A program made the position numbers and the translations under genes. A stretch of DNA of 64,000 nt from Raoultibacter phocaeensis (GTDB lineage Bacteria > Actinomycetota > Coriobacteriia > Coriobacteriales > Eggerthellaceae): NCBI RefSeq assembly GCF_901411515.1, contig NZ_CABDUX010000002.1, forward strand, positions 806,001 to 870,000, given 5' to 3'. Shown here piece by piece: positions 13,429 through 27,297 of the stretch. The notes under the pieces were generated by a model, which saw nothing but the letters and a program-made list of their open reading frames with translations, had not been told where the DNA came from and did no database searches. Position 1 is the first letter of the stretch. Every line of letters starts with the position of its first letter.

Positions 13429-13509
13429 GGGCGCGGCGCTCGCATACGTGCAAGAGAAGGGTAGGGCCTGTGGCAAAAAGCTGCAGGTCCTTTCCTGTTT
13501 CATGCGGCG

Positions 13510-13546
13510 CAACTGGCTTACGAGTAAGATACCCGTAAGCCAGTTG
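13510..13546 (+). terminator. Perfect 13-bp hairpin after hppA
   Basis: CAACTGGCTTACG (13510-13522) pairs perfectly with 13534-13546 across an 11-nt loop, about 80 bp after the hppA stop. It lacks a T run but is the strongest structure on the hppA side of the convergent gap. Confidence 0.5.
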
Positions 13547-13601
13547 CCTACGGGTATCCGCATCGACCCCCGCCAGTACGGTATACGGGAGTCCGCATCA
13601 G

Positions 13602-13632
13602 CCCCGCCTGCAGGCGCTTTATGCAGGCGGGG
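13602..13632 (-). terminator. GC-rich terminator hairpin after the giant repeat gene
   Basis: CCCCGCCTGCA (13602-13612) pairs perfectly with 13622-13632 around a 9-nt loop. It begins 7 nt beyond the minus-strand stop codon of the 2344-aa gene, as expected for its terminator, and may serve both convergent genes. Confidence 0.65.
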
Positions 13633-13639
13633 GATCGCA

Positions 13640-16600
13640 TCAGGCCTTCCGGCTGCGGCTGAGGAAGAACCTGCTTGCCATCACGGCGCCGGCTGCCAGC
13701 ACCGCTATCATCACCAGCACGGCCGCAGGGGCTGAAGCATCGCCAGTGGCGGGAGCCACAGAGAGGGGCTTGGCGCCCTCGCCGGTCAGGGCGATAGCCT
13801 GAGAACCCGCGCCCGCAGATTCGATCCAGAGCACGCCTGCATAGGTCTGGATCGAGGTGGGGGTGAACGTCACGACAAGCTCGCCGCCCGTGCGCGGGTC
13901 CCACCCCTCGCCGGGCTCGACGGCAAAGCCCTCGGGCGCCCGGAACGCTATCTCGGAGTCGAACCCTGGGGCGGCCACGTTCACCACCTGCGCGGCGCTC
14001 GTGGTGCCCACGTCCTGCGCGCCGAACGTCAGGCTCTTCGGCGTGGCTGAAAGCGCAAGCTCCCTGCCTTCTCCCGTGAGCGCCACTGCTGCGGCGTTCG
14101 CTTTGTTGGAGCCGATCCAGAGGATGTCGCCGTAGGCCCGCTCGTCGGTCGGATCGAACGTCACGAAAAGCTCGCCTCCCGTGCGCGGATCCCAGCCCTC
14201 GGCGCACTCGACGGTGAAGCCCTCGGGCGCGGCGAAGGCCATGTCGGCCGTGAGCCCGGAGGCCGTTACCCGCACGCGCTGCTCGGCGCTCTTCGTGCCC
14301 ACCTGGTGCGTGCCGAACGCAAGCAAGCCCGCGCTCGCCTTCACTGCCGGGCTGCGACCCTCGCCGGAAAGCGCCACCGCCGCCGCGTCGGCATCTCCGG
14401 ATTCGATCCACATGACCGACCCGTAAGCCCGCTCCTCGGTCGGGTTGAACCTCACGTGAAGCTCGCCTCCGGTTCGAGCATCCCAACCTGCAGCTGGCGT
14501 AACCGAGAAGCCCTCGGGTGCGGAAAAGGCCATATCGGCTCCAAGCCCCGAGGCGACAACCCGGATGCGTCGCTCGTCGCTCGTGCTTCCGAGCGGCTGG
14601 AAGCCGAATGCTGCAAGTCCCGGCACAGCCGCAATGGCCTTTTCGCGGCCCTCGCCGGTGAGCACCACCGACACCGCATCAGCCCCTTCGGCCTTGATCG
14701 ACAGGAGCGAACCGTATTCTTTGGCCTCGGCCGGGCTGAACGCCACGCGAAGCACGCCCCCCGCGCGCGCATCCCATCCCTCGGCGGGCGCGACCATGAA
14801 GCCGTCGGGCACCTCGAAGCTCATATCCCCCGAAAGCCCGTGCGCTCCTACTGTTATGCGCTGCTCGGCGCTCTTCGTGCCTACTGGCTGATTGCCGAAG
14901 AGAAGGGCGGAAGGCGCCGCCTTGATGGCCGAAGCGCGCCCCTCGCCGGTTAAGGTTACCGGCTGGGAGGTGGTGCCGTCGGCGTGTATCCACATGATGT
15001 CGCCGTAGTCTTTCGCTTCGGTCGGTTTGAACGCGATGCGCAGCTCGCCTCCGCTGCGTGCGCTCCAGTCATCGGCCGGGACTACCGTGAAACCGTCGGG
15101 AACGGTGAAGGAAAGATCGCTCGTCAAGCCTGCGGCGGATATCAGTATGCGCCTTTCAACGCTCTCGGTACCCACCGGTTGATAGCCGAACGCCGCCAAA
15201 GCGGGCTCAGCCTCGATGGAAGAGGCGAGTCCGCTGCCCGCAAGCGACATCGACGCCGTATCGGCTCCGTTGGCTTCGATGCGCATGAGGGCGTTGTACG
15301 CTCTGGCCTCGACGGGAACGAACGTCACGCGAAGCTCGCCGCCCGTGCGCGGGTCCCACCCCTCGGCGGGCTCGACGGCGAAGCCCTCGGGGGAGCGAAA
15401 CGAGAGGTCGCCCGTAAGCCCCGAGGCGGCCACCCGCACGCGCTGCTCGGCGCTCTTCGTGCCCGCAGCCCGGCCGCCGAACGACAGATGACCGGGCACG
15501 GCCTTGATGGTCGCGTCGCGGCCCTCGCCGGTGAGTACGACGGGTACGCCGTCGGCTCCAACGGCTCTGATCCACATGACGCCGCCATAGGACTTGACCT
15601 CGGTCGGGCTGAAGGTCACCCGCAAATCGCCGCCCGTACGCGGGTTCCAGGTATCGGCGGGCTCGGCGGCAAAACCCTGCGGAGCGGAATACGTCAGATC
15701 GCCGGTAAGCCCGTGCGCCTCAACATGCACGATCTGCTCTACGCTCTTTGTGGCAAGAGGCTGGTACCCGAACGCCATCAGCTCCTGCGAGGCCCCCACG
15801 GACGCGGCCACGCCCCGCCCGGTCAGCGTCACCGATTTCGCGTCGGCCCCGTCGGCCGACACCTCCATGACGCCGCCGTAGAGCTTCGACTCGGTCGGGT
15901 CGAACGTCACGCGCAGCGTGCCGCCGGTGCGTGCGTTCCAGCCGTAGGCCGGCGTCGCCGTGAAGCCCTCGGGCATGTCGACGACCAGATCGTTTTCAAG
16001 CGCGTACGCCTCGACCTTCACCAGCTGCTCGGCGCTCTTGGTGGCCACCGCCTGCTTGGCGAAGTCCAGGCGCGCGGGCGCGACCTCGATGTTCGCCATC
16101 CGGCCCTCGCCGGTCAACACCACCGGGACGGCGTCGACACCGCCGCCCGCATCAACCCACATGACGTCGCCGTAGGGCTTCTTCTCGGTGGGACTGAACG
16201 CCACCTTCAGGGCGCCTCCCAGCTTGCCGTCCCACCCGTCGGCAGGCGTGACGACGTACCCGTCCGGCACGTTGTAGGTGATGTCCTCGCCAAGGTTGTG
16301 ACCCCGCACCTCCACCCGCTGCTCGGCGCTCGTCGTGCCGATGGTCTGGAACCCGAAAACCAGCATGCCCGGCGAAACCTCAACGGATTGGGTCACACCC
16401 GTGCCGCGCAGCGGCACGGTAACCGCATCGGCGCCGTCAGCCTCGATGCGCAGCGTCTGGCCGTACGCCTTCGCCTCGGTCGGGTCGAACGTCACGCGCA
16501 GGTGCCCGCCCTTGCGCGCGTCCCAACCGTCGGCGTGCACGGTGAAGCCGGTTCCGACGAGATCGCTGTAGTAAAGGTCGCTTTCGACGTTGGCCGCGCG

Positions 16601-19600
16601 CACCTCGACAAGCTTCTCGAAGCTCTTCGAAGTCACGGCCTGCTTGCCGAAGTCGAGGTCGGTCGGCGCGACGTCGATCTTCGCCGCGCACCCCGTGCCG
16701 TTGAGCCCCACTGCGCATACCTCGGTGCCGTCTCGCTGCACCCGCAGGAAGTCGGCGTACTCCTTCTCCAAGGTGGGGTCGAAGGTCACGCGCAAATATC
16801 CGCCCAAGACCGGGTCCCAATCCTCGTGCGGCGTGACGGTGAAGCCGTCGGGCGCCGTGTAGGTCAGGCTTCCCGGAGCGTCGGCCGGCTCGATCTTCAC
16901 CAGCTGCTCGGCGCTTTTAGTGCCCACCAGCTGCGAGCCGAAGCTCAGGTATTCAGGCACCGCCTTCACCTTGTTCTCGAAGCCCTGGCCGGTCAGCGTC
17001 ACGGGCACCGGATCGGCCCCCTCGGCCGTGATCCACAGAACGCCGCTGTAGGACACCGCCTGGGACGGCTTGAACCTCACCTTCACCCAGCCGCCTTTTC
17101 GACCATCCCAATTCGTTGGCGTTTCCACCTCGAAGCCTTCGGGGGGCGTGATGACAAGGCTGCTCGCAGGCAGGTCGGCCTCCACGAAGAACTCCTTCGC
17201 CTGAGACGTCTCCCCTGCCTTCGTGAATCCAAACGGAATGTTACCCCTGTCGGACGTGATGATGTTCTTGCACCCCTCGCCGGTGATCACGACGGGCACG
17301 CGGTCCACCCCGGGCAGCTCGATCCATATGGTGCCCTGGTACGTTTGCTCGGTCTGCGGGGTGAACGAGACGGATAGCGTGCCTCCTTTTACGTTCTCCC
17401 AGCCAGGCATGGTTTGGGCGTTTATGCCGGAGGGAAGCCCGGTCTGATCTACGACTATGTTGCGAGTGGTGTTAGACCCGTGCGCCTTCACCTCGATTCC
17501 CGCCATGCGGCTATGGCCTATCGGCGCCTTGCCGAACGCGACCAGCCCCGTGCTCACCTCAAGGGACACGTCGCGGCCGGTGCCCGTGAGCGACACCGAT
17601 GCCCCGTCGGCCCCGTCGGCCTCGATGCGCAGCGTCTGGCCGTAGCCCTTCTCCTCCGTTGGGTCGAAGGTCACGCGCAGGGTGCCGCCCGTGCGGGGGC
17701 TCCACCCCTCGGCGGGCGTCACCGCGAAGCCCTCGTCGGGCTCGATGATGCGCATATCCTCGGCAAGGTCGTTCGCCTTCACCTCGACGAGCTTCTCCAA
17801 GCTCTTGGAGCCCACGGCCTGGTCGCCGAAGGACAGAAGCTTCGGGCTCACCTCGATGTCGGGCACCACGCCCTCGCCGGTGAGGGTGAGCGGCTCCGCA
17901 TCGGCGCCGTCGGCCTCGATCCACATGACCGCGCCGTAGGACCTCTCCTCGGTCGGGTCGAACGTGATATGCAGCTTGCCGCCCGACTTCGCATCGAAGC
18001 CCGCGTCGGGAACGACCGTGTAGCCGTCGGGTGCCGCGAAGGCCATGTCCTGGGCGAGGTTCGTGCCCTTCACCTCCACCACGCGCTCGGCGCTCTTCGT
18101 GCCCACCTGCTGGGTGCCGAACGCCACCGTCTGCGGGTCCACCTCGATGGACGAGCGCGTGCCCGTGCCGTCAAGCACGACCGTCGCCGCATCCGCGCCG
18201 TCGGCGTCGACCTGCAAGAGCTCGGTATAGTGCTTCTCGTCGGTGGGAGCGAACGTCACGCGCAGCGTGCCGCCCGTGAGGGGGTCCCAATCGGCGGCGG
18301 GATCGATCACGAAGCCGTTCGGCGCGTTGAGCTGCATGGTGCCGGTCAGGCCCGTCGCAACCACGTGCACGCGCTGCTCGGCGCTCTTCGTGCCCACGGC
18401 CTGCGAGCCGAATGCGAGGCGCTCGGGCGCGACCGTGATGGTGGCGGTGCGTCCCTCGCCCGACACAGCCACAAGAGCCTCGTCAGCCCCGTCGGCGCTG
18501 ATGCGCACGTGACCGGCGTAGGACTTGGCCTCGGCGGGGTCGAACGTCACGTGCAGCGTGCCGCCCGCTTGGGGATTCCAGTTCGCATCGGGCGCGGCGG
18601 TGAAGCCCGCGGGCGCGTCGACGGTCAACTCGCCCGCCAGTCCCGATGCCGTCACCACAACATCTTGCTTGGCGCTCGTCGAGCCCCTCGCTTGGGGTCC
18701 GAAGTCCAGATGATCGGGCACGGCTTGGATAATCGAAGCGCGCCCCTCGCCGGAAAGCGCTACGATTGCGGTTGCGTTCGCAGTCCCGATGCGCAAGGTG
18801 CCTTGGTACGATTTGGCTTCGACCGGGTTGAACGTCACGCGCAGCTCGCCGCCCGTGCGCGGATCCCAGGCGTCGGCGGGTACGGCCTCGAATCCTTCCG
18901 GCGCCTCGATGGCAAGCTCGCCCGCAAGCCCGACGGCGCTTACCCCTATGCGCATCTCGGCGCTTCTCGTGTTCGCCGCTTGAGCCCCGAAATCCACGTT
19001 CGGGGTCGAGGCTTTGACCGACGGGGTCACGCCCTCGCCGGTGAGTGCGACCGGCGCGGCATCGGCCCCGGCGGACTCTATCCACAAGGTGTCCGCGTAA
19101 CCGGCCGATGCGGTGGGTGCAAACGTGACGTACAGCTGCCCGCCGCGGAGCGGATCCCACGAGTTACCCGGTACTACCTTGAAGCCCGCAGGCGCCGCGT
19201 AGGTCAAATCAGAGGACAGGCCCGCAGCCGAAACCGTCACGGTCCTCGTCTCGCTCTCGGAGTTCACGCCTTGCACGCCGAACGCGAGAAGCCCCGGACC
19301 GGCCACTACGGCCACAGCGCGCCCTTCGCCGGTCAGCGCCACCACGGCTGCATCCGCACCGCCGGTTCCTATCGTGAGCACCGCGCCGTAGGGTTTCGCC
19401 TCGGCAGGGTGAAACGTCACGCGCAGGGTGCCGCCCGTGCGCGGACTCCACCCCTCGGTGGGCTCCACCGTGAAGCCCTCGGGATCGTTCCATGTCAGAT
19501 CGCTTGTAAGCCCCGACGCGGTTATCCGCACGCGCTGCTCTGCGCTTGCGGTGGCCACGGGTTGGTGCCCGAACGACAGGCGGCCCGCCGATGCCTTCAC

Positions 19601-20674
19601 CGTCGAGACGCGGCCCTCGCCGTTCACCGCCACCTGCGCGCTCACGTCTTTCGCCGATCCCTGCGCGCGGAGCCAGAGTATGCCGCCGTAGGGTTTCACC
19701 TCGGTGGGTTCGAACGTCACCAGCACATCGCCGCCGGTTTTCGGATCCCACTTTTCGCCGGGTACTGCGGAGAAGCCCTCCGGCGCTTCGATTGCAAGCT
19801 CACCGGTCAGGTTGGTCGCCTGCACCTGCACGCGCTGCACGGCGCTTTTCGTGGACACCGCCTGGTAGCCGAACGAAAGCAGGCTGGGGCCGGCCGTGAT
19901 GGCCGAATCGACGCCGTAGCCCTGAACCGCAATGGTTTCGAAGGGCGCGTCCCCCGAACGGAGTATCAGAAGGTCGCCGTAGGGCTTCGCCTCTGCGGGG
20001 GCGAACGTCACGCGGAGCTCTCCGCCCAAGCGCGCATCCCAACCTTCGGAGGGCGCAACCGAGAAACCTTCGGGCGCCTCGATGGTCATATCGATGAGAA
20101 GGCCGCTTGCCTTGACGGAGACGACCTTCTCGACGCTTGCGACGCCCACCGCCTGCGATCCGAAGTTGAGCAGATCCTGATCGGCTGCGATGAGGGGATC
20201 GGGAAGCGGGGTGCCGGCATCGTCGTACGGTTGGACTTCGGGGGGCGCGGCGCCGATCTGGATAGCGGCGTCCGATCCGCCCGAGGTGTTGTCGGCGGTT
20301 GGCGAGCCGGTGGGATCGGCGGAGTTCGGGGGGTTTGTGCCATCGGGGCCGACGGGAGCTACGCTGATCGAGGGAGTGCCGCTGCCGCCTTCGGGGTCGA
20401 CCGGCGAGATGCTGATCGAGGGGGAGTTGGAATCGCGGTTTTGGCCGTCGTCCGATCCGGCCTCCCGTGCGGGCCCCACCGTGATCGAGGGACCGTCCGC
20501 CGCGTTATCGGCGGTTGCATCCTTTATGCCGGCGGTGTCCTCATCCTGCTCTGCCTGCGCCGCCGCGGGGGGGGGCGAATCTTTTCCCGCAAGCGCAACC
20601 GGCGGAATTCCGGTTGTCACGGCCAACGCAACCGCGAGAAACACTGCTCCGAGCTTCCACCGGCGAGATTTCAT
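13640..20674 (-). CDS. Giant secreted protein of 22 tandem choice-of-anchor-D/HYDIN-like repeats
   Basis: The 2344-aa protein has a signal peptide (LGAVFLAVALAVTTG, cleaved near ALA-GK), a Pro/Ser/Asp-rich linker to about residue 165, and then 22 tandem repeats of about 97 residues. Each has the pattern LxFGxQxVGTKSAEQ, a central GWDPRTGGELRVTF and a closing VALTGEG. The C-terminus has APATGD, a hydrophobic segment and the tail SRSRKA, which resembles a sortase signal with Ala in place of Leu. ATG at 20674 follows AGGGGGCC. Repeats 10 and 11 are the most divergent. It is probably a cell-wall-anchored Ig-like stalk or adhesin; its ligand is unknown. Confidence 0.88.
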   Translation of the reverse strand: MKSRRWKLGAVFLAVALAVTTGIPPVALAGKDSPPPAAAQAEQDEDTAGIKDATADNAADGPSITVGPAREAGSDDGQNRDSNSPSISISPVDPEGGSGTPSISVAPVGPDGTNPPNSADPTGSPTADNTSGGSDAAIQIGAAPPEVQPYDDAGTPLPDPLIAADQDLLNFGSQAVGVASVEKVVSVKASGLLIDMTIEAPEGFSVAPSEGWDARLGGELRVTFAPAEAKPYGDLLILRSGDAPFETIAVQGYGVDSAITAGPSLLSFGYQAVSTKSAVQRVQVQATNLTGELAIEAPEGFSAVPGEKWDPKTGGDVLVTFEPTEVKPYGGILWLRAQGSAKDVSAQVAVNGEGRVSTVKASAGRLSFGHQPVATASAEQRVRITASGLTSDLTWNDPEGFTVEPTEGWSPRTGGTLRVTFHPAEAKPYGAVLTIGTGGADAAVVALTGEGRAVAVVAGPGLLAFGVQGVNSESETRTVTVSAAGLSSDLTYAAPAGFKVVPGNSWDPLRGGQLYVTFAPTASAGYADTLWIESAGADAAPVALTGEGVTPSVKASTPNVDFGAQAANTRSAEMRIGVSAVGLAGELAIEAPEGFEAVPADAWDPRTGGELRVTFNPVEAKSYQGTLRIGTANATAIVALSGEGRASIIQAVPDHLDFGPQARGSTSAKQDVVVTASGLAGELTVDAPAGFTAAPDANWNPQAGGTLHVTFDPAEAKSYAGHVRISADGADEALVAVSGEGRTATITVAPERLAFGSQAVGTKSAEQRVHVVATGLTGTMQLNAPNGFVIDPAADWDPLTGGTLRVTFAPTDEKHYTELLQVDADGADAATVVLDGTGTRSSIEVDPQTVAFGTQQVGTKSAERVVEVKGTNLAQDMAFAAPDGYTVVPDAGFDAKSGGKLHITFDPTEERSYGAVMWIEADGADAEPLTLTGEGVVPDIEVSPKLLSFGDQAVGSKSLEKLVEVKANDLAEDMRIIEPDEGFAVTPAEGWSPRTGGTLRVTFDPTEEKGYGQTLRIEADGADGASVSLTGTGRDVSLEVSTGLVAFGKAPIGHSRMAGIEVKAHGSNTTRNIVVDQTGLPSGINAQTMPGWENVKGGTLSVSFTPQTEQTYQGTIWIELPGVDRVPVVITGEGCKNIITSDRGNIPFGFTKAGETSQAKEFFVEADLPASSLVITPPEGFEVETPTNWDGRKGGWVKVRFKPSQAVSYSGVLWITAEGADPVPVTLTGQGFENKVKAVPEYLSFGSQLVGTKSAEQLVKIEPADAPGSLTYTAPDGFTVTPHEDWDPVLGGYLRVTFDPTLEKEYADFLRVQRDGTEVCAVGLNGTGCAAKIDVAPTDLDFGKQAVTSKSFEKLVEVRAANVESDLYYSDLVGTGFTVHADGWDARKGGHLRVTFDPTEAKAYGQTLRIEADGADAVTVPLRGTGVTQSVEVSPGMLVFGFQTIGTTSAEQRVEVRGHNLGEDITYNVPDGYVVTPADGWDGKLGGALKVAFSPTEKKPYGDVMWVDAGGGVDAVPVVLTGEGRMANIEVAPARLDFAKQAVATKSAEQLVKVEAYALENDLVVDMPEGFTATPAYGWNARTGGTLRVTFDPTESKLYGGVMEVSADGADAKSVTLTGRGVAASVGASQELMAFGYQPLATKSVEQIVHVEAHGLTGDLTYSAPQGFAAEPADTWNPRTGGDLRVTFSPTEVKSYGGVMWIRAVGADGVPVVLTGEGRDATIKAVPGHLSFGGRAAGTKSAEQRVRVAASGLTGDLSFRSPEGFAVEPAEGWDPRTGGELRVTFVPVEARAYNALMRIEANGADTASMSLAGSGLASSIEAEPALAAFGYQPVGTESVERRILISAAGLTSDLSFTVPDGFTVVPADDWSARSGGELRIAFKPTEAKDYGDIMWIHADGTTSQPVTLTGEGRASAIKAAPSALLFGNQPVGTKSAEQRITVGAHGLSGDMSFEVPDGFMVAPAEGWDARAGGVLRVAFSPAEAKEYGSLLSIKAEGADAVSVVLTGEGREKAIAAVPGLAAFGFQPLGSTSDERRIRVVASGLGADMAFSAPEGFSVTPAAGWDARTGGELHVRFNPTEERAYGSVMWIESGDADAAAVALSGEGRSPAVKASAGLLAFGTHQVGTKSAEQRVRVTASGLTADMAFAAPEGFTVECAEGWDPRTGGELFVTFDPTDERAYGDILWIGSNKANAAAVALTGEGRELALSATPKSLTFGAQDVGTTSAAQVVNVAAPGFDSEIAFRAPEGFAVEPGEGWDPRTGGELVVTFTPTSIQTYAGVLWIESAGAGSQAIALTGEGAKPLSVAPATGDASAPAAVLVMIAVLAAGAVMASRFFLSRSRKA

Positions 20675-20774
20675 AGAGGCCCCCTGTTCGTACTGTCATG
20701 CCTGCATCCTGTGCGGTCAACAGAGCGTCTTTCGGTTATCGGCACCGCTTTTACGAACCATTACCGAATAGCTC

Positions 20775-20783
20775 AGTGTAGCA
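20775..20783 (-). promoter_or_regulatory. Candidate extended -10 promoter of the giant repeat gene
   Basis: The minus strand reads TGCTACACT, an extended -10 element about 95 nt upstream of the ATG at 20674. It resembles the extended -10 sequences at 10344 and 20978. No clear -35 was seen. Confidence 0.4.
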
Positions 20784-20974
20784 GATCCGATCATGGTTCG
20801 CGCCCGGCCAAACGCAGACGCGCATCCTCGAATTCCCGCATACGGCCATGATTGCACAGACGGCAGCACCCGGCTCAACCATGACGATTTTGTCAGCTTT
20901 CCGCGTTTGCGCCCGCGCTTCGGCCGTGTGCGTTGGCTCGGCCCCGATAAAGGGCGCAAGGGCGCTTGCAGGTC

Positions 20975-20983
20975 TGCTAGAAT
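20975..20983 (+). promoter_or_regulatory. Candidate extended -10 promoter of the sensor kinase operon
   Basis: TGCTAGAAT provides an extended -10 element about 185 nt upstream of the kinase start at 21169. A -35 is not evident. Confidence 0.4.
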
Positions 20984-21168
20984 TTACGATGATGAAGCAA
21001 CGTAGCATTTAGCGCGCAAGGCGGCGCTTCGTGCAAAACGGCGGCTTTGCTGTATTCGCGTGCTTCGCCTACGGTCGTCAAGAGATTCGTGCGGTGCGCG
21101 CCGTGGCGTTGAAGCGCTGTTCGGCAGCCGTCGCGTCGTGCGGTGGCGATGAAGGAAGGGGTGCATAC

Positions 21169-23139
21169 GTGGAACGAAAGCGCGAGCTGCGATCGCTTCT
21201 GATCGTGCTTTCCGTCATTCTGCTCGTGTGCCTCTCGCTGCTCTACCTCAGAAACCCGTACCGCTACGACCTCGTCGACCTGGTGAAGGTCGAATCGGAA
21301 GCGGGCACGTGGGATTTGACCGAGGTGGATTTCTCGAACACCGTCGTCCAGCTTATGGGCGAGGTGGAATACGTAGACGACGCCATCCTCGACCCCGACG
21401 AGTTCGACTCGGCAGACGGGGTAGAAGTGGGAAGTCCCGGTTACGCGTACCAAGCGGCAACGAGCCGCATGCGCGTGCTTCTGCCCGAGGAGCGCACCTA
21501 CCTCATCGCCGATTCGAGCATCGATTTCGCGCACCGTCTGTTCGTGGACGGCGAGGAGCGCTATGCGGCGGGAACTCCCGCAGAGACGGCCGACGCGTTC
21601 GAGCCGGGCTACGGGCGGTTCTCTCTTGAGGTGTATGCGCAGGGCGGCAGCATCGAGATCGTACAGCAGGCGGCGAACTTCGTGCACCGCGAAAGCGGCG
21701 GCCACGACGGGATGCTCATCGGCTTGCCTGCGGTGGTGCATGCATTCAGCGACGTGAAGCCCGCCGTCGAGCTTGTCACGGTCGGCCTGTTCCTTGCGCT
21801 GTTCCTCGTCCATCTGGCGCTCTGGACGTTCTTCCGCTCGTACAAGAGCAACCTCGTCTTCGCGGCGCTCTGCCTCACGTGGGCCGTGCGGGCGAGCGTC
21901 ACCGGGTCGAAGGCGCTCTACTCCATCTTCCCCCTGCTTCCATGGGAGCTCGCGTTTCGGGCCGAATACCTCACGCTGCCGCTCGGGTGCATCCTCGTGC
22001 TGCTGCTTATCCAGGACCAGTTCCCGCACGTCATGCACGCGGCGGTGCGCCGTGCGGGCATCGCGGTGTCGGCGGCGTTCGCGCTCTCGTTCGTGCTCGC
22101 CGATACGCTTTGGATGAGCAACGCGCTCACGGCGTATTACGGCGTGTTCACGGCGATCATCGTCTACCTGATCGTGCGGTTCGCCCAGAAGGTGCCCTCC
22201 ATGGTGCGCGCCCGGACGCTCACGACGGGGCAGGCGGTCGCGCTCTTCGCGCTGGCCGTGTTCATGTACGCCGCCGTGCACGACGCGCTGTACTACCTCG
22301 GCATCTACCTGTTCGGCGTGAAGAGCTCGCTCGCCGAGGGCGCCATGCTCCTGTTCGCGCTGTTCCAGATGGTCGCGAACTTCTACGGCACCATGCGCGA
22401 GGTGGCCGACGCCCGCGAACGCGAGCGGCGCGCTGAAGACGAGCGGGCGGCCCTCGCCGAGATGAACCGCCTGAAAAGCGAGTTCTACGCCGACGTGTCG
22501 CACGAGATGAAGACGCCCCTCACGGTGATAGCGGCCAACGCGCAGTTCGCCGCACAGATGCTCGAAGCGGGCGAGGCCGATGGGGAAACCGTGGGCGATC
22601 TGCACGCCATCTCGTCGGAAGCGCGCCGTCTGACGGAGCTCGTGGCGGGCATGGTGGATGTGAGCCGCATGCAGCAGGGCGCTGCGCGCTGCGCGTCGGT
22701 GGACGCGGGCGAGCTCGTGCGCGATACGGCGCAGATGTACCGCTCGCTTCTGGCGCGGCGGAGAAACGAGCTCGTCGTGGAGGTCGGGGAAGGCGTGGGC
22801 GAGGTGGAGGCCGATGCCGACCAGCTGACCCAGGTGCTCGTGAACCTGCTCGCGAACGCGAACCGCCACACGTTGGGCGGCACGGTGAGCGTTTCGGCGA
22901 AGCGGGTCGAAGGCGGCGTGCGCGTGAGCGTGTCCGACACCGGCGAGGGCATCGACGGCGAGCTGCTTTCCCGCGTGTTCGAGCGGTCAAGCAGCGGGGA
23001 AGGGCGAAGGTCGGGGCTCGGGCTTCCCATCTGCAAGGCCATCGTGGAGCGCCACGGCGGGACGATGGAGATCGAAAGCGCGCCGGGCGCGGGCACGCAG
23101 GTGCGGTTCACCCTGCCCGTGCCGGACGAGACGAGATGA
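21169..23139 (+). CDS. 7TM-type sensor histidine kinase
   Basis: The 656-aa kinase has an N-terminal membrane helix (about 6-25), a ~150-residue extracytoplasmic domain resembling the 7TMR-DISM sensor module, seven membrane helices (about 195-400), a short coiled coil, a HisKA domain with the phosphorylated His in DVSHEMKTPLT, and a HATPase domain (NLLANANRH, DTGEGID, GLGLPICKAIVERHGG). I chose GTG at 21169 because GAAGGAAGG precedes it. The stop overlaps the ATG of the response regulator gene, so the two form one translationally coupled system. The signal sensed is unknown. Confidence 0.9.
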   Translation: MERKRELRSLLIVLSVILLVCLSLLYLRNPYRYDLVDLVKVESEAGTWDLTEVDFSNTVVQLMGEVEYVDDAILDPDEFDSADGVEVGSPGYAYQAATSRMRVLLPEERTYLIADSSIDFAHRLFVDGEERYAAGTPAETADAFEPGYGRFSLEVYAQGGSIEIVQQAANFVHRESGGHDGMLIGLPAVVHAFSDVKPAVELVTVGLFLALFLVHLALWTFFRSYKSNLVFAALCLTWAVRASVTGSKALYSIFPLLPWELAFRAEYLTLPLGCILVLLLIQDQFPHVMHAAVRRAGIAVSAAFALSFVLADTLWMSNALTAYYGVFTAIIVYLIVRFAQKVPSMVRARTLTTGQAVALFALAVFMYAAVHDALYYLGIYLFGVKSSLAEGAMLLFALFQMVANFYGTMREVADARERERRAEDERAALAEMNRLKSEFYADVSHEMKTPLTVIAANAQFAAQMLEAGEADGETVGDLHAISSEARRLTELVAGMVDVSRMQQGAARCASVDAGELVRDTAQMYRSLLARRRNELVVEVGEGVGEVEADADQLTQVLVNLLANANRHTLGGTVSVSAKRVEGGVRVSVSDTGEGIDGELLSRVFERSSSGEGRRSGLGLPICKAIVERHGGTMEIESAPGAGTQVRFTLPVPDETR

Positions 23140-23840
23140 GGACGGCTATGGGAACGAGCGCCGATACGGTATTGCTGATCGAAGACGATGAGAACGTGCA
23201 GCGGACGAACCGCCGGGTGCTCGAGTACGCGGGCTACGCGGTGCAGTGCGCCGCGACGCTCGACGAGGCGTGGCGGAGCCTGCGCGCGCGTCCGCCCGAC
23301 GCGATCGTGCTCGACATCCTCATGCCCGACGGCAGCGGACTCGATTTCTGCGAGAAGATCCGCCCTCTCACCCCGGCGCCGGTGCTGTTTCTGACGGCGC
23401 TCGACGAGAAGAGCGAGGTGGTGGGGGGCCTGAGGGCGGGCGGCAACGATTACATCACGAAGCCCTACGACGTCGACGAGCTTGTGGCGCGCGTGGACGC
23501 CCTGCTCTCGCTCGTGCGCATGAACCGCGTCGCCCAAAGCAAGACGCTCGTACGCGGGCCGCTCGTGATCGACCTCGTTGCCCACCGGGCCTACGTGAAC
23601 GGGCGCGACCTGCTGCTCACGGGCAAGGAGTACGCGCTTCTGCTCGTGCTCGCGCGCCGCGCCGGGTGCACGCTTGCGCCCGAGCACCTGTACGCCACCG
23701 TGTGGAACGAGCCGTACGCGACGGGCACCGCAACGCTGCGCCGCCACCTCTCGTCGCTGCGCCACAAGCTCGAAGAGGCGGGCGGCGGCTGCACGGTCGA
23801 GGCCGTCTACGGCAAGGGCTACCGGTTCGAAACGCCGTAA
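23136..23840 (+). CDS. OmpR/PhoB-family response regulator
   Basis: The 234-aa regulator has a receiver domain with acidic pocket LIEDDE, phosphoacceptor Asp in IVLDILMPDGSG, and the conserved Lys in ITKPYDVDE. A C-terminal winged-helix DNA-binding domain covers about 130-234 and ends in VYGKGYRFE. ATG at 23136 overlaps the kinase stop (ATGA); a second in-frame ATG at 23148 is possible. It is the cognate partner of the upstream 7TM kinase. The surface-protein gene starting about 140 bp downstream is a plausible target by position only. Confidence 0.94.
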   Translation: MRTAMGTSADTVLLIEDDENVQRTNRRVLEYAGYAVQCAATLDEAWRSLRARPPDAIVLDILMPDGSGLDFCEKIRPLTPAPVLFLTALDEKSEVVGGLRAGGNDYITKPYDVDELVARVDALLSLVRMNRVAQSKTLVRGPLVIDLVAHRAYVNGRDLLLTGKEYALLLVLARRAGCTLAPEHLYATVWNEPYATGTATLRRHLSSLRHKLEEAGGGCTVEAVYGKGYRFETP

Positions 23841-23860
23841 GGCGGCTTCGGGATTCGGGC

Positions 23861-23880
23861 GCGCGGCGGTGTAGCCGCGC
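23861..23880 (+). terminator. Hairpin after the two-component operon
   Basis: GCGCGGC at 23861-23867 pairs with GCCGCGC at 23874-23880 around a 6-nt loop, 20 nt after the response regulator stop. It is not followed by a T run. Confidence 0.4.
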
Positions 23881-23980
23881 CGACACCGCGAGATTGTGAA
23901 ATTCCCGTAATCTTTTCTTTATGCAGATGCGTTCGTGGTTCGATACGACGATAGGTAAAAAGGCGCGAGAAGGGCTGTTC

Positions 23981-25759
23981 ATGTTGGGATGTGCACCAAG
24001 TAAGCAGGTAGGACGAATGGTGTTTGCGGTGGCGATCGGAGTATTGCTCTGCGTTGGTGCGGGCTTACTCGCAGCGATGCCCGCAACTGCCCACGCCCAA
24101 CCGGTCCAGCACACGATCACGATCACTGCCGATGACAATGTGGCGACCGATCCTGCCGGGTCGCCTCTCCACTCTCCCACGAGAACGCTACAGGTGAACG
24201 AAGGCGACGACGTAACGTTCATGATCATGCCGCTATCTGGCTACGCCATCAAAGAGGTGAAGGCAGACGGCACGAACGTGCCCATCAGCGATCTCGTGAG
24301 CGGCACCTACACGTTTCGCGACGTGCGCGCAGACCACACGTTCGAAGTGTCGTCCAAAACGAGCACTCAGAATATAGAGAATTTTCCAACCATATATTCT
24401 ATAGTGGAGGGCGATACGGTGAGCTGGACGCCTTCGATCTCGGGCGGCACGTGGTGGATATCCGATCCGTCGTATATTTCGTATCGGGAGACCAGTCCCG
24501 GCACCTACGAGTTCACGGCCCTCAAAGTCGGTTCTCCCTATGCCATGTACGCTGTGGGCGACTTGACAAGACGGGTGTCTTTCGGAATCACCGGCGTACC
24601 GTTCGATTCGGGCGACTTGAAATACGAGGTGACCAGCGAGCGCGCTACCGGGGGTGCGGGTGCGCCCGGCGAGAACACGGTGATGGTGAAAGGTCCCGCT
24701 GACGGAAAAACTCCGACCGACATCGTCATCCCGGCGCAGGTTTCCGGAAACCCGCGCAGTCCGGGTACCGTGTACGAGGTGACGAGGATTGCATCGAGCG
24801 CTTTTTCGGATAACGGTGCGCTCGAGACCGTCGATTTCTCGAACGTGACCCTTACTCCCAACTTCGTCGGGAATGACGCTTTCTGGACGTGCGGCAACCT
24901 CAACGCGCTCGTATTCGGGCAGCTCACGGCGCCCGAGATCGTCAACGGTTTCTATAACTCGGGCCCAAGCGGCGGCACGGTCTACTATCCCAAGGGGGCA
25001 ACAGGCTACGTGCCATCCATGTTCAAGCCTGGCGACCCTAGCGATCCGTACCATCTCGCTGGTTGGGACTACGAGCCCTATCCCGCTCCCAGCGCGCCGC
25101 AGAGCTTTGCCGTTGCGGCGGGTAACGGCACGGCCGATCTTGCGTGGCAGGCTCCGGCCGAAGGGATGGGAATCTGGAAGTACCAGTATTCCGTCTCGTA
25201 CGACGGCGTGGACGCCTGGCAAGACGTTCCCGATTCCGACCGCTCGACCACGAGCATCGCGCTTTCGGGTCTTGAGAACGGGAAGACCTACGAATTCAAG
25301 GTGCGTGCCGTGAACGGCGCGGGCGAGGGAGAGGCAGCGCTAGCATCGGCTGTGCCCGCTGCCAGGCTCCTCAGCATCCAGGCGCCGAGCGCGATCACGG
25401 GCATCTCGCACGCAACGTCTCTGGCCGACATCCTGCTGCCGGGCCAGCTGACCGTTGCCGCCGAAGACGGGGAGTACAAAGCCGATGTCACCTGGGACCG
25501 GAAGTCGGCAAAGCCCGCCTACGATCCCGAAAAAGCGGCCGAGCAGACGTTCGTTCTCAAAGGCGTGGTAACCCTGCCCCCGAACGTGACCAACCTTGAC
25601 AACCTTCCCCTTGAAACGAGCATCTCGATAACCGTGGAGGCGGCCCCGGCGAAGCTGGCTACCGTGGGCGATACGGCGCTGCCGCTTGTCGCGCTTGCGG
25701 TTGCAGCGCTTGCCGCGTTCGTTGTCCTGGCCGCACGGAAGAAGCTGAGCCGCCGGTAG
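23981..25759 (+). CDS. Secreted surface protein with LRR_5, fibronectin type III and Ig-like regions
   Basis: The 592-aa protein has a signal peptide (FAVAIGVLLCVGAGLLAAM, cleaved near AHA-QP) and an N-terminal beta-rich region. A short BspA-type leucine-rich motif follows (RIASSAFSDNGALETVDF, near 270). A fibronectin III domain spans about 375-470 (LAWQAPAEGMG, LENGKTYEFKVRAVN), with a bacterial Ig-like region after it. The end is a membrane helix plus KKLSRR tail, without an LPxTG motif. I chose ATG at 23981, preceded by AGAAGGG; an in-frame ATG at 23921 adds 20 residues without a ribosome site. It follows a two-component system that may regulate it. Confidence 0.82.
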   Translation: MLGCAPSKQVGRMVFAVAIGVLLCVGAGLLAAMPATAHAQPVQHTITITADDNVATDPAGSPLHSPTRTLQVNEGDDVTFMIMPLSGYAIKEVKADGTNVPISDLVSGTYTFRDVRADHTFEVSSKTSTQNIENFPTIYSIVEGDTVSWTPSISGGTWWISDPSYISYRETSPGTYEFTALKVGSPYAMYAVGDLTRRVSFGITGVPFDSGDLKYEVTSERATGGAGAPGENTVMVKGPADGKTPTDIVIPAQVSGNPRSPGTVYEVTRIASSAFSDNGALETVDFSNVTLTPNFVGNDAFWTCGNLNALVFGQLTAPEIVNGFYNSGPSGGTVYYPKGATGYVPSMFKPGDPSDPYHLAGWDYEPYPAPSAPQSFAVAAGNGTADLAWQAPAEGMGIWKYQYSVSYDGVDAWQDVPDSDRSTTSIALSGLENGKTYEFKVRAVNGAGEGEAALASAVPAARLLSIQAPSAITGISHATSLADILLPGQLTVAAEDGEYKADVTWDRKSAKPAYDPEKAAEQTFVLKGVVTLPPNVTNLDNLPLETSISITVEAAPAKLATVGDTALPLVALAVAALAAFVVLAARKKLSRR

Positions 25760-25762
25760 GCG

Positions 25763-25805
25763 CTCCCGCGCGGCCGCCTCGTCGGGCGAGAGCTTCGCGC
25801 GGCGG
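25763..25805. repeat. 43-bp exact direct repeat, copy 1 (remnant of the OPT gene)
   Basis: These 43 bp are identical to 27409-27451 inside the OPT transporter gene, in the same orientation. On the minus strand they would encode RRAKLSPDEAAARE, the cytoplasmic segment of that transporter. Here the sequence is downstream of two convergent genes and belongs to no intact gene, so it looks like a duplicated fragment. Confidence 0.8.
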
Positions 25806-25878
25806 GTAACCTTGCTGCCGTCCGCGGCCTCCGAGCTTTCTCGCGTGTTGGGTACGCGGTGCCGGAGCGAGGCGCCTT

Positions 25879-27099
25879 TCAAAGGTAGGAAACGGGCAGC
25901 GCCCAGGCATCGTCGGGAAGCGGAAGCGGGCTATTCGTTCTGCAGACGACGACGCCGGGTTGCCGGTGGTATCCTTTGAATGCGTCGAGCGCCGCGAATG
26001 CCCGCGTATCGGCGGGTCGTGCGATCTCGGCCTTCTTTATCTCGATGGGGAACAGCTGGCTCCCGCGCTCGATGACGAGATCGATTTCGCGGCCGTTCGA
26101 GTCGCGATAGAAGTAAAGCGAGGGTATGGATCCGCTTGCGTTCAGGAAGCTTTTGACGATTTCGGACAGCACGAATCCTTCGAAGAAGGCCCCCGCTTGC
26201 TGGCTGCGTTCGAGTTCTTCAGGGCTTTCACATTCGCAGAGGCGCGCCGCAAGGCCCGAATTGAGGAAATAGAGCTTCGGTGTTTTAACGAGCCGTTTCG
26301 TGGTGCTCGCGGTAAAGGGTCTGAGCAGATAGACGATGCTCGATGCTTCGAGTACGGAAAGCCACCGGTCGACGGTGTTGAAGCTCGCATCGATTTTGTC
26401 GGCGAGGTCGCTTTTGTTGAGCATCTGCCCGTGGGCGCGGGCGACGATTCGTATGAACCGGTTGAACTTCGCAAGGTCTCCCACATGCGCGAGATCGCGC
26501 ACGTCCCGCCGAAGGTACGTTTCGATGTACGAGTCGTAGTAGCGCGTGATGCTCATAGCCGGGTCCACGGCCAATTCGGGAAGGTCGCCCCTGAATATCG
26601 TCGTCCAGATATCTTCGGTTTCCCGTTTTGGCTGGCGGCCTTCAATATAGTCTACGGTCGGAACGAAGGGCTTGTCGAACGGGTCGCGACGAAGCTCGCG
26701 AAGCGAGAGCCCCAGCATTTCGACGATACCGGCGCGCCCGGCGAGCGATTCGTCCACGCCCTGCATCATCTGAAAACGCTGCGATCCGGTAAGGAGGATG
26801 CGTCCCTTGCTTCGGGGGTGGGCATCGCTCTCGAGCTTGATGTAGCGAAAGAGATCGGGGGCGTATTGCACCTCGTCGATGACTGCGGGCTTCGGAAGCG
26901 CTCGCAGAAAGCGTTCGGGTTCCTGCTCGGCAGCCTCGAGCGCGTCGAGCCGATCGAGGGTGGTGTAGGAGGCGTCGGGCGCGACGTGCGAGAGCAGGGT
27001 GGTCTTGCCTGCTTGTCGTGGTCCGGTCACTAAGGTGACGGGGAAGGTTCTCGCCGTTTCTTGCACGACGGATGCGAGGTGGCGGGGTATGTAGTCCAT
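25879..27099 (-). CDS. AAA ATPase with DUF4143 C-terminal domain
   Basis: The 406-aa protein has an N-terminal ATPase domain with Walker A GPRQAGKTTLL (about 26-36), a hydrophobic strand ending PAVIDEVQYAP (Walker B), and LTGSQRFQMM. A C-terminal DUF4143 domain includes FFEGFVLSEIVKSF and an EIDLVIE nuclease-like motif. Members are common in gut bacteria; their role is uncertain, and links to mobile or toxin-like loci are speculative. ATG at 27099 has AGGAG 7 nt upstream. It is a single-gene unit with its own AT-rich promoter. Confidence 0.9.
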   Translation of the reverse strand: MDYIPRHLASVVQETARTFPVTLVTGPRQAGKTTLLSHVAPDASYTTLDRLDALEAAEQEPERFLRALPKPAVIDEVQYAPDLFRYIKLESDAHPRSKGRILLTGSQRFQMMQGVDESLAGRAGIVEMLGLSLRELRRDPFDKPFVPTVDYIEGRQPKRETEDIWTTIFRGDLPELAVDPAMSITRYYDSYIETYLRRDVRDLAHVGDLAKFNRFIRIVARAHGQMLNKSDLADKIDASFNTVDRWLSVLEASSIVYLLRPFTASTTKRLVKTPKLYFLNSGLAARLCECESPEELERSQQAGAFFEGFVLSEIVKSFLNASGSIPSLYFYRDSNGREIDLVIERGSQLFPIEIKKAEIARPADTRAFAALDAFKGYHRQPGVVVCRTNSPLPLPDDAWALPVSYL

Positions 27100-27151
27100 A
27101 GAAAGCTCCTAGCCTATGAAAATCATTCAGTAGAAGTATGAAATAGCATAA

Positions 27152-27180
27152 AATATAGTGATGAATTTGCATAAAGTCAA
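27152..27180 (-). promoter_or_regulatory. Sigma-70-type promoter of the DUF4143 ATPase gene
   Basis: On the minus strand TTGACT (27175-27180) and TATATT (27152-27157) are separated by exactly 17 bp. The surrounding 60 bp are strikingly AT-rich for this chromosome. This is one of the best consensus promoters in the window. Confidence 0.75.
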
Positions 27181-27297
27181 GGATGCTTGGGTAACGGTTC
27201 ACCATCTTAGAGGCTGGGAGCGTACCGCTATTGGATCAGGCAACGATATAGTTTCGGGCTGGTTGGGCTGCCCTGAAAGAGAATCGCGCCCGGCAGA

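Follow-up and report, generated by a model that had tools for sequence, protein, structure and literature searches.

The locus raises the question of what a 2344-aa repeat protein with a sorting-like tail does at the surface of Raoultibacter phocaeensis, and how so long a gene came to be assembled. The window, i.e. the whole stretch of 64,000 nucleotides analysed here, encodes this protein on its minus strand, and we consider it quite likely that the product is a sortase-anchored surface rod of 22 domains that lacks a head and derives from a mosaic gene. The open reading frame starts with an ATG that is preceded by GGGGG (read from the sequence), and its product was read as exported, with a signal-peptide-like start (MKSRRWKLGAVFLAVALAVTTGIPPVALA). 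No promoter-like site was found over the rod gene region, and the large plus-strand ORFs that overlap the gene (e.g. 17414-20851) have the look of shadow ORFs. An 18-nt inverted repeat (window 13509-13547, 94% complementary, 3-nt gap) lies just downstream of the gene and is possibly a terminator. The parts of the gene referred to first are as follows, G021 being a genome of another genus of the same family.

13640..20674, minus strand: gene of the 2344-aa rod protein (ORF, repeat HMM).
20588..20674, minus strand: signal peptide (aa 1-29), assigned by visual inspection of the sequence.
20195..20587, minus strand: acidic low-complexity N-terminal linker, aa 30-160, at the place where the G021 relatives have a ~2000-aa head containing Cthe_2159 domains.
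13766..20194, minus strand: 22 HYDIN/ASH-type (choice-of-anchor D) Ig-like repeats (HMM, Pfam, NCBIfam, predicted fold).

An HMM built from the protein's own copies recovered exactly 22 full-length repeats at aa 161-2303 with a period of 96-101 aa and scores of 86.8-130.4 bits per copy, far beyond chance, in agreement with the 22 repeats of about 97 aa counted in the original prediction. Its description of the repeats as near-regular holds for period and protein motif and fails for the DNA, in which adjacent repeats are only 48-65% identical (mean of all repeats 58%, best pair 69%). The NCBIfam model choice_anch_D matched the whole protein with an E-value of 3.8e-89 (294.4 bits, cut-off 45) and stayed below its cut-off on single repeats (best 34.2 bits). 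Pfam matches fell to the CFAP65, ASH and HYDIN Ig families, with curated cut-offs exceeded for PF22544 (40.7 vs 25.5) and PF15780 (83.1 vs 27), and the repeat profile matched Hydin chains in the PDB at the sequence level. The structure prediction that had been proposed at the outset, carried out with AF2 on repeats 19-21, gave an Ig fold with a pLDDT of 93.5; the top Foldseek matches of this three-repeat model were ciliary central-pair proteins, with TM-scores over the three domains so low that the likeness is one of single domains and not of the array. By profile match and predicted fold, the repeats are Ig domains of the HYDIN/ASH type with an Ig-like beta sandwich, consistent with the long array of about 22 Ig-like domains first proposed.

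Matches to the rod were confined to the window genome and G021 among 138 genomes of the family (window genome included). In G021 two neighbouring genes encode a 5008-aa protein with 28 repeats and a 5786-aa protein with 36. Both share with the rod a similar signal peptide and linker, the same repeat and an xPxTGD tail, and the N-terminal 107 aa of the rod share 49.5% identity with the start of the 5008-aa protein. The two giants differ from it in repeat number, in their neighbourhood (uvrB lies beside them) and in a head of ~2000 aa containing carbohydrate-binding Cthe_2159 domains, which the rod lacks. A search with the repeat profile at strict E-value limits in 396 genomes of the class and 396 of the phylum returned nothing beyond the window genome and G021, and part of the G021 head used as a query in the 138 family genomes matched G021 only. 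Protein searches of phage, viral contig and genome contig collections found no relative, and a plasmid search gave only distant choice-of-anchor D proteins (22-25% identity). A separate Cthe_2159 (PF14262) protein is encoded elsewhere in the window genome (G000:C1:481288-482106, open frame of 750 aa).

The rod is the counterpart, without a head, of a giant fibrillar adhesin that bears carbohydrate-binding head domains in the genus of G021. Most window repeats have positional counterparts in the 5008-aa protein: in a tree of all 86 repeats, window repeats 1-2 pair with its repeats 1-2, 6-17 with 9-20, 19 with 25 and 22 with 28, while repeats 3-5, 18, 20 and 21 show no such simple pairing. It is possible, if rather doubtful, that the short form is ancestral and that the G021 lineage acquired the head, with no loss in the lineage of the window; the family occurs in only two genomes, so that polarity is read from few data, and recombination confounds it. 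However, both G021 paralogues are headed, and the head is probably old because the two long matches between their heads are only 39% and 49% identical. Since most window repeats, moreover, pair with the 5008-aa and not with the 5786-aa paralogue, loss of the head is the simpler account.

The headless gene lies in a segment that is missing from the same site of G001, a genome of the same genus.

13430..27297, no strand assigned: ~13.9-kb block, missing at the same site of G001 (genome comparison).
21031..23840, plus strand: two-component system of the block (sensor histidine kinase, response regulator), divergent from the rod gene.
23921..25759, plus strand: putative surface protein of 612 aa, the second in the block (fn3 domain, tail).

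In G001, ~150 bp separate the H+-PPase gene from the sequence that corresponds to window 27298 and beyond. The block missing there comprises the rod gene, the two-component system, the gene of the fn3 surface protein, whose tail reads LATVGD, a hydrophobic stretch and RKKLSRR, and an AAA/DUF4143 gene. No tRNA was found in the window, and no direct repeats were found within either flank region of the block when each was searched by itself. The absence of the block from the sister genome may reflect gain here or loss there, both of which are compatible with the comparison.

Two repeats in the middle of the array stand apart from the remainder.

16973..17566, minus strand: repeats 10-11, a divergent pair (GC3 0.81; the two longest terminal branches of the 86 repeats).

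Repeat 10 (aa 1037-1137) and repeat 11 (aa 1138-1234) have mean identities to the others of 29% and 33%, against 40-48% for the remaining 20, and so are as strongly divergent as had been noted. A frameshift was rejected as the cause, the other two frames giving no match. Repeat 5 (aa 552-647, window 18734-19021) is also accelerated, with 39 vs 2 changes on the window side against its nearest G021 counterpart, at least equal to repeats 10-11. For the latter, relative-rate counts gave a window-side excess of 27:5 (p 1.1e-4) and 15:2 (p 0.0023), respectively, and together with the long terminal branches these suggest that the pair diverged mainly in the window lineage, which argues against the ancient core that it had been thought to mark. 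A hinge, the other role suggested, finds no favour in the predicted structure, as repeats 9-12 were modelled as all-beta domains with the layout of the other repeats (pLDDT 89). A more tentative idea, to which we give only limited credence, is that repeats 10-11 form a rapidly evolving functional site in the middle of the rod (for ligand binding, or as a phage or immune target) within a conserved scaffold. The branch lengths and the rate excess would fit such a site, as would dN/dS values of 0.79 and 0.66, the highest among the ortholog pairs compared; yet dN/dS is below 1 throughout, the excess in repeat 10 is not significant with a second outgroup (20:10, p 0.099), repeat 5 is no less accelerated, and part of what makes the pair conspicuous is that replacement seems to have affected its neighbours and not the pair itself.

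At its C-terminus the protein ends as originally described.

13643..13756, minus strand: sorting tail of APATGD, a hydrophobic stretch and SRSRKA (sequence, anchor HMM in genome scan).

With APATGD at aa 2307-2312, the tail has the layout of a sorting signal (LPXTG-like motif, hydrophobic stretch, basic end) in which the motif is APATG. The LPXTG_anchor HMM was borderline, reaching 17.7 bits against a cut-off of 15.9 in the genome scan and falling below it, at 13.4 bits, in a plain protein scan. The original prediction had been staked on the presence of a sortase in the genome, and six were found: five at two pilus-type loci, of which the two scanned are both class C, and a sixth, of class B, on contig C2. 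Two loci, at C1:1079-1085k and C1:1499-1504k, combine sortases (those scanned being class C) with pilin-like LPXTG proteins. At the pilus loci the tails are IPQTGG, LPVTGG, LPITGG and LPKAGG, while anchor-like tails elsewhere mostly end in TGD (FAQTGD, LAATGD, WAATGD, LAETGD, LVQTGD, FPKTGD and LPKTGD); among these tails, which were chosen by eye from a permissive scan and may be an incomplete list, A at the first motif position is unique to the rod. Because the non-pilus anchors mostly end in xxxTGD, anchoring of the rod to the wall by a sortase is likely, with the class B enzyme as the probable one. In G021 and in G001, one sortase looks homologous to this enzyme by eye. The G021 homologue scores as class B and the second G021 sortase, which falls slightly short of the cut-off, is class B-like, so that G021, whose rods end in TPITGD, has sortases of class B type only. 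In G001 the sortase search found only two. The non-leucine first residue, already pointed out in the original prediction, is no obstacle, because the class B enzyme SrtB of C. difficile cleaves (S/P)PXTG (PMC4155245); publications on APXTG and sortase, by their titles and abstracts, concern sortase engineering or protein modification. That the rod is instead a membrane protein held by its hydrophobic C-terminus and never processed by a sortase seems improbable: the initial A of the motif and the sub-threshold score in the protein scan would suit it, but the complete sorting-signal layout, the class B sortase in the genome, the retention of an xPxTGD tail in the relatives and the precedent of SrtB all speak for anchoring.

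On either side of repeats 10-11, the array carries tracts of high identity to the G021 genus.

17567..18442, minus strand: repeats 7-9, an imported-looking tract (84-95% DNA identity to the G021 genus; GC3 0.92-0.95).
15803..16972, minus strand: repeats 12-15, a second high-identity tract (82-92% DNA identity; GC3 0.88-0.95).

Repeats 8, 9, 14 and 15 are 90-95% identical to G021 in DNA, with dS values of 0.12, 0.18, 0.20 and 0.18, respectively, while four reference genes gave 0.63-1.05 against G021 and 0.49-0.99 against the same-genus G001. GC3 is 0.84-0.99 in the G021 repeats (0.95 in G021 uvrB, 0.96 in its H+-PPase gene), 0.69-0.87 in window repeats outside the two tracts and 0.72-0.91, mostly 0.72-0.86, in window genes; it correlates with pS (rho -0.81), in part mechanically. 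The array is thus a mosaic in comparison with the one relative genome, G021, and repeats 7-9 and 12-15 look like recent imports from a high-GC3, G021-like donor in more than one tract, a single import being too simple for a pattern with dips inside repeats 7 and 13. Codon or sequence constraint in place of transfer is very improbable, since high GC3 on both sides would lower synonymous distance there but paralogous repeats of similar GC3 (W8-B21, W9-B25, W15-B12) still have a dS of 0.54-0.76 and there are sharp differences between neighbouring repeats that share the fold. Import into an older native gene that spared repeats 10-11 is the simplest reading. We regard as unlikely the more elaborate scheme in which exchange between genera swaps single Ig domains while selection keeps repeats 10-11 species-specific because a headless adhesin makes its functional contact there.

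In the model that we favour, the rod protein would be exported, cut between T and G of APATGD and joined to peptidoglycan, most likely by the class B sortase. Its 22 Ig domains would form a stalk of perhaps 70-100 nm, if each is taken to span 3-4.5 nm, and the acidic N-terminus at its tip is probably disordered. In vivo the protein is probably rod-shaped, and without a head its probable role is that of a spacer, a surface brush or a binder of ligands through the rod itself. When DNA of a high-GC3, G021-like donor replaced repeats 7-9 and 12-15, repeats 10-11 and both ends of the gene would have retained older, native-like sequence. These findings suggest that giant HYDIN-type surface rods, a family of very narrow distribution, are anchored by a class B sortase through non-leucine motifs. 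They also provide a repeat protein in which mosaic evolution between genera can be read domain by domain, and with both headed and headless forms at hand, the rod's own role can be tested directly.

Several known systems resemble the rod in part. HYDIN, CFAP65 and ASH Ig domains belong to the same domain family by HMM and predicted fold, but occur in eukaryotic ciliary or centrosomal proteins and not in surface rods. Fibrillar adhesins (PMC8286594, PMC9210967) have in common with the rod an export signal, a long stalk of tandem folded domains (here seen by repeat HMM and AF2 model) and a sortase-type tail. Unlike them, the rod has no recognised adhesive domain: Pfam found no known one, and the Cthe_2159 head is present only in the relatives. 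Neither HYDIN nor ASH is named in the main text of either publication. Like periscope proteins (PMC8201768), the rod consists of tandem domains whose number varies between relatives (22, 28, 36), and it is apparently wall-anchored. In contrast to the highly similar DNA repeats of that class, its own copies (best pair and mean as given above) are too divergent for easy length variation by recombination, and most of them keep their positional identity between genera. The rod is therefore ordinary in kind, probably a wall-anchored Ig rod, and unusual in its narrow distribution, its missing head and its mosaic history.
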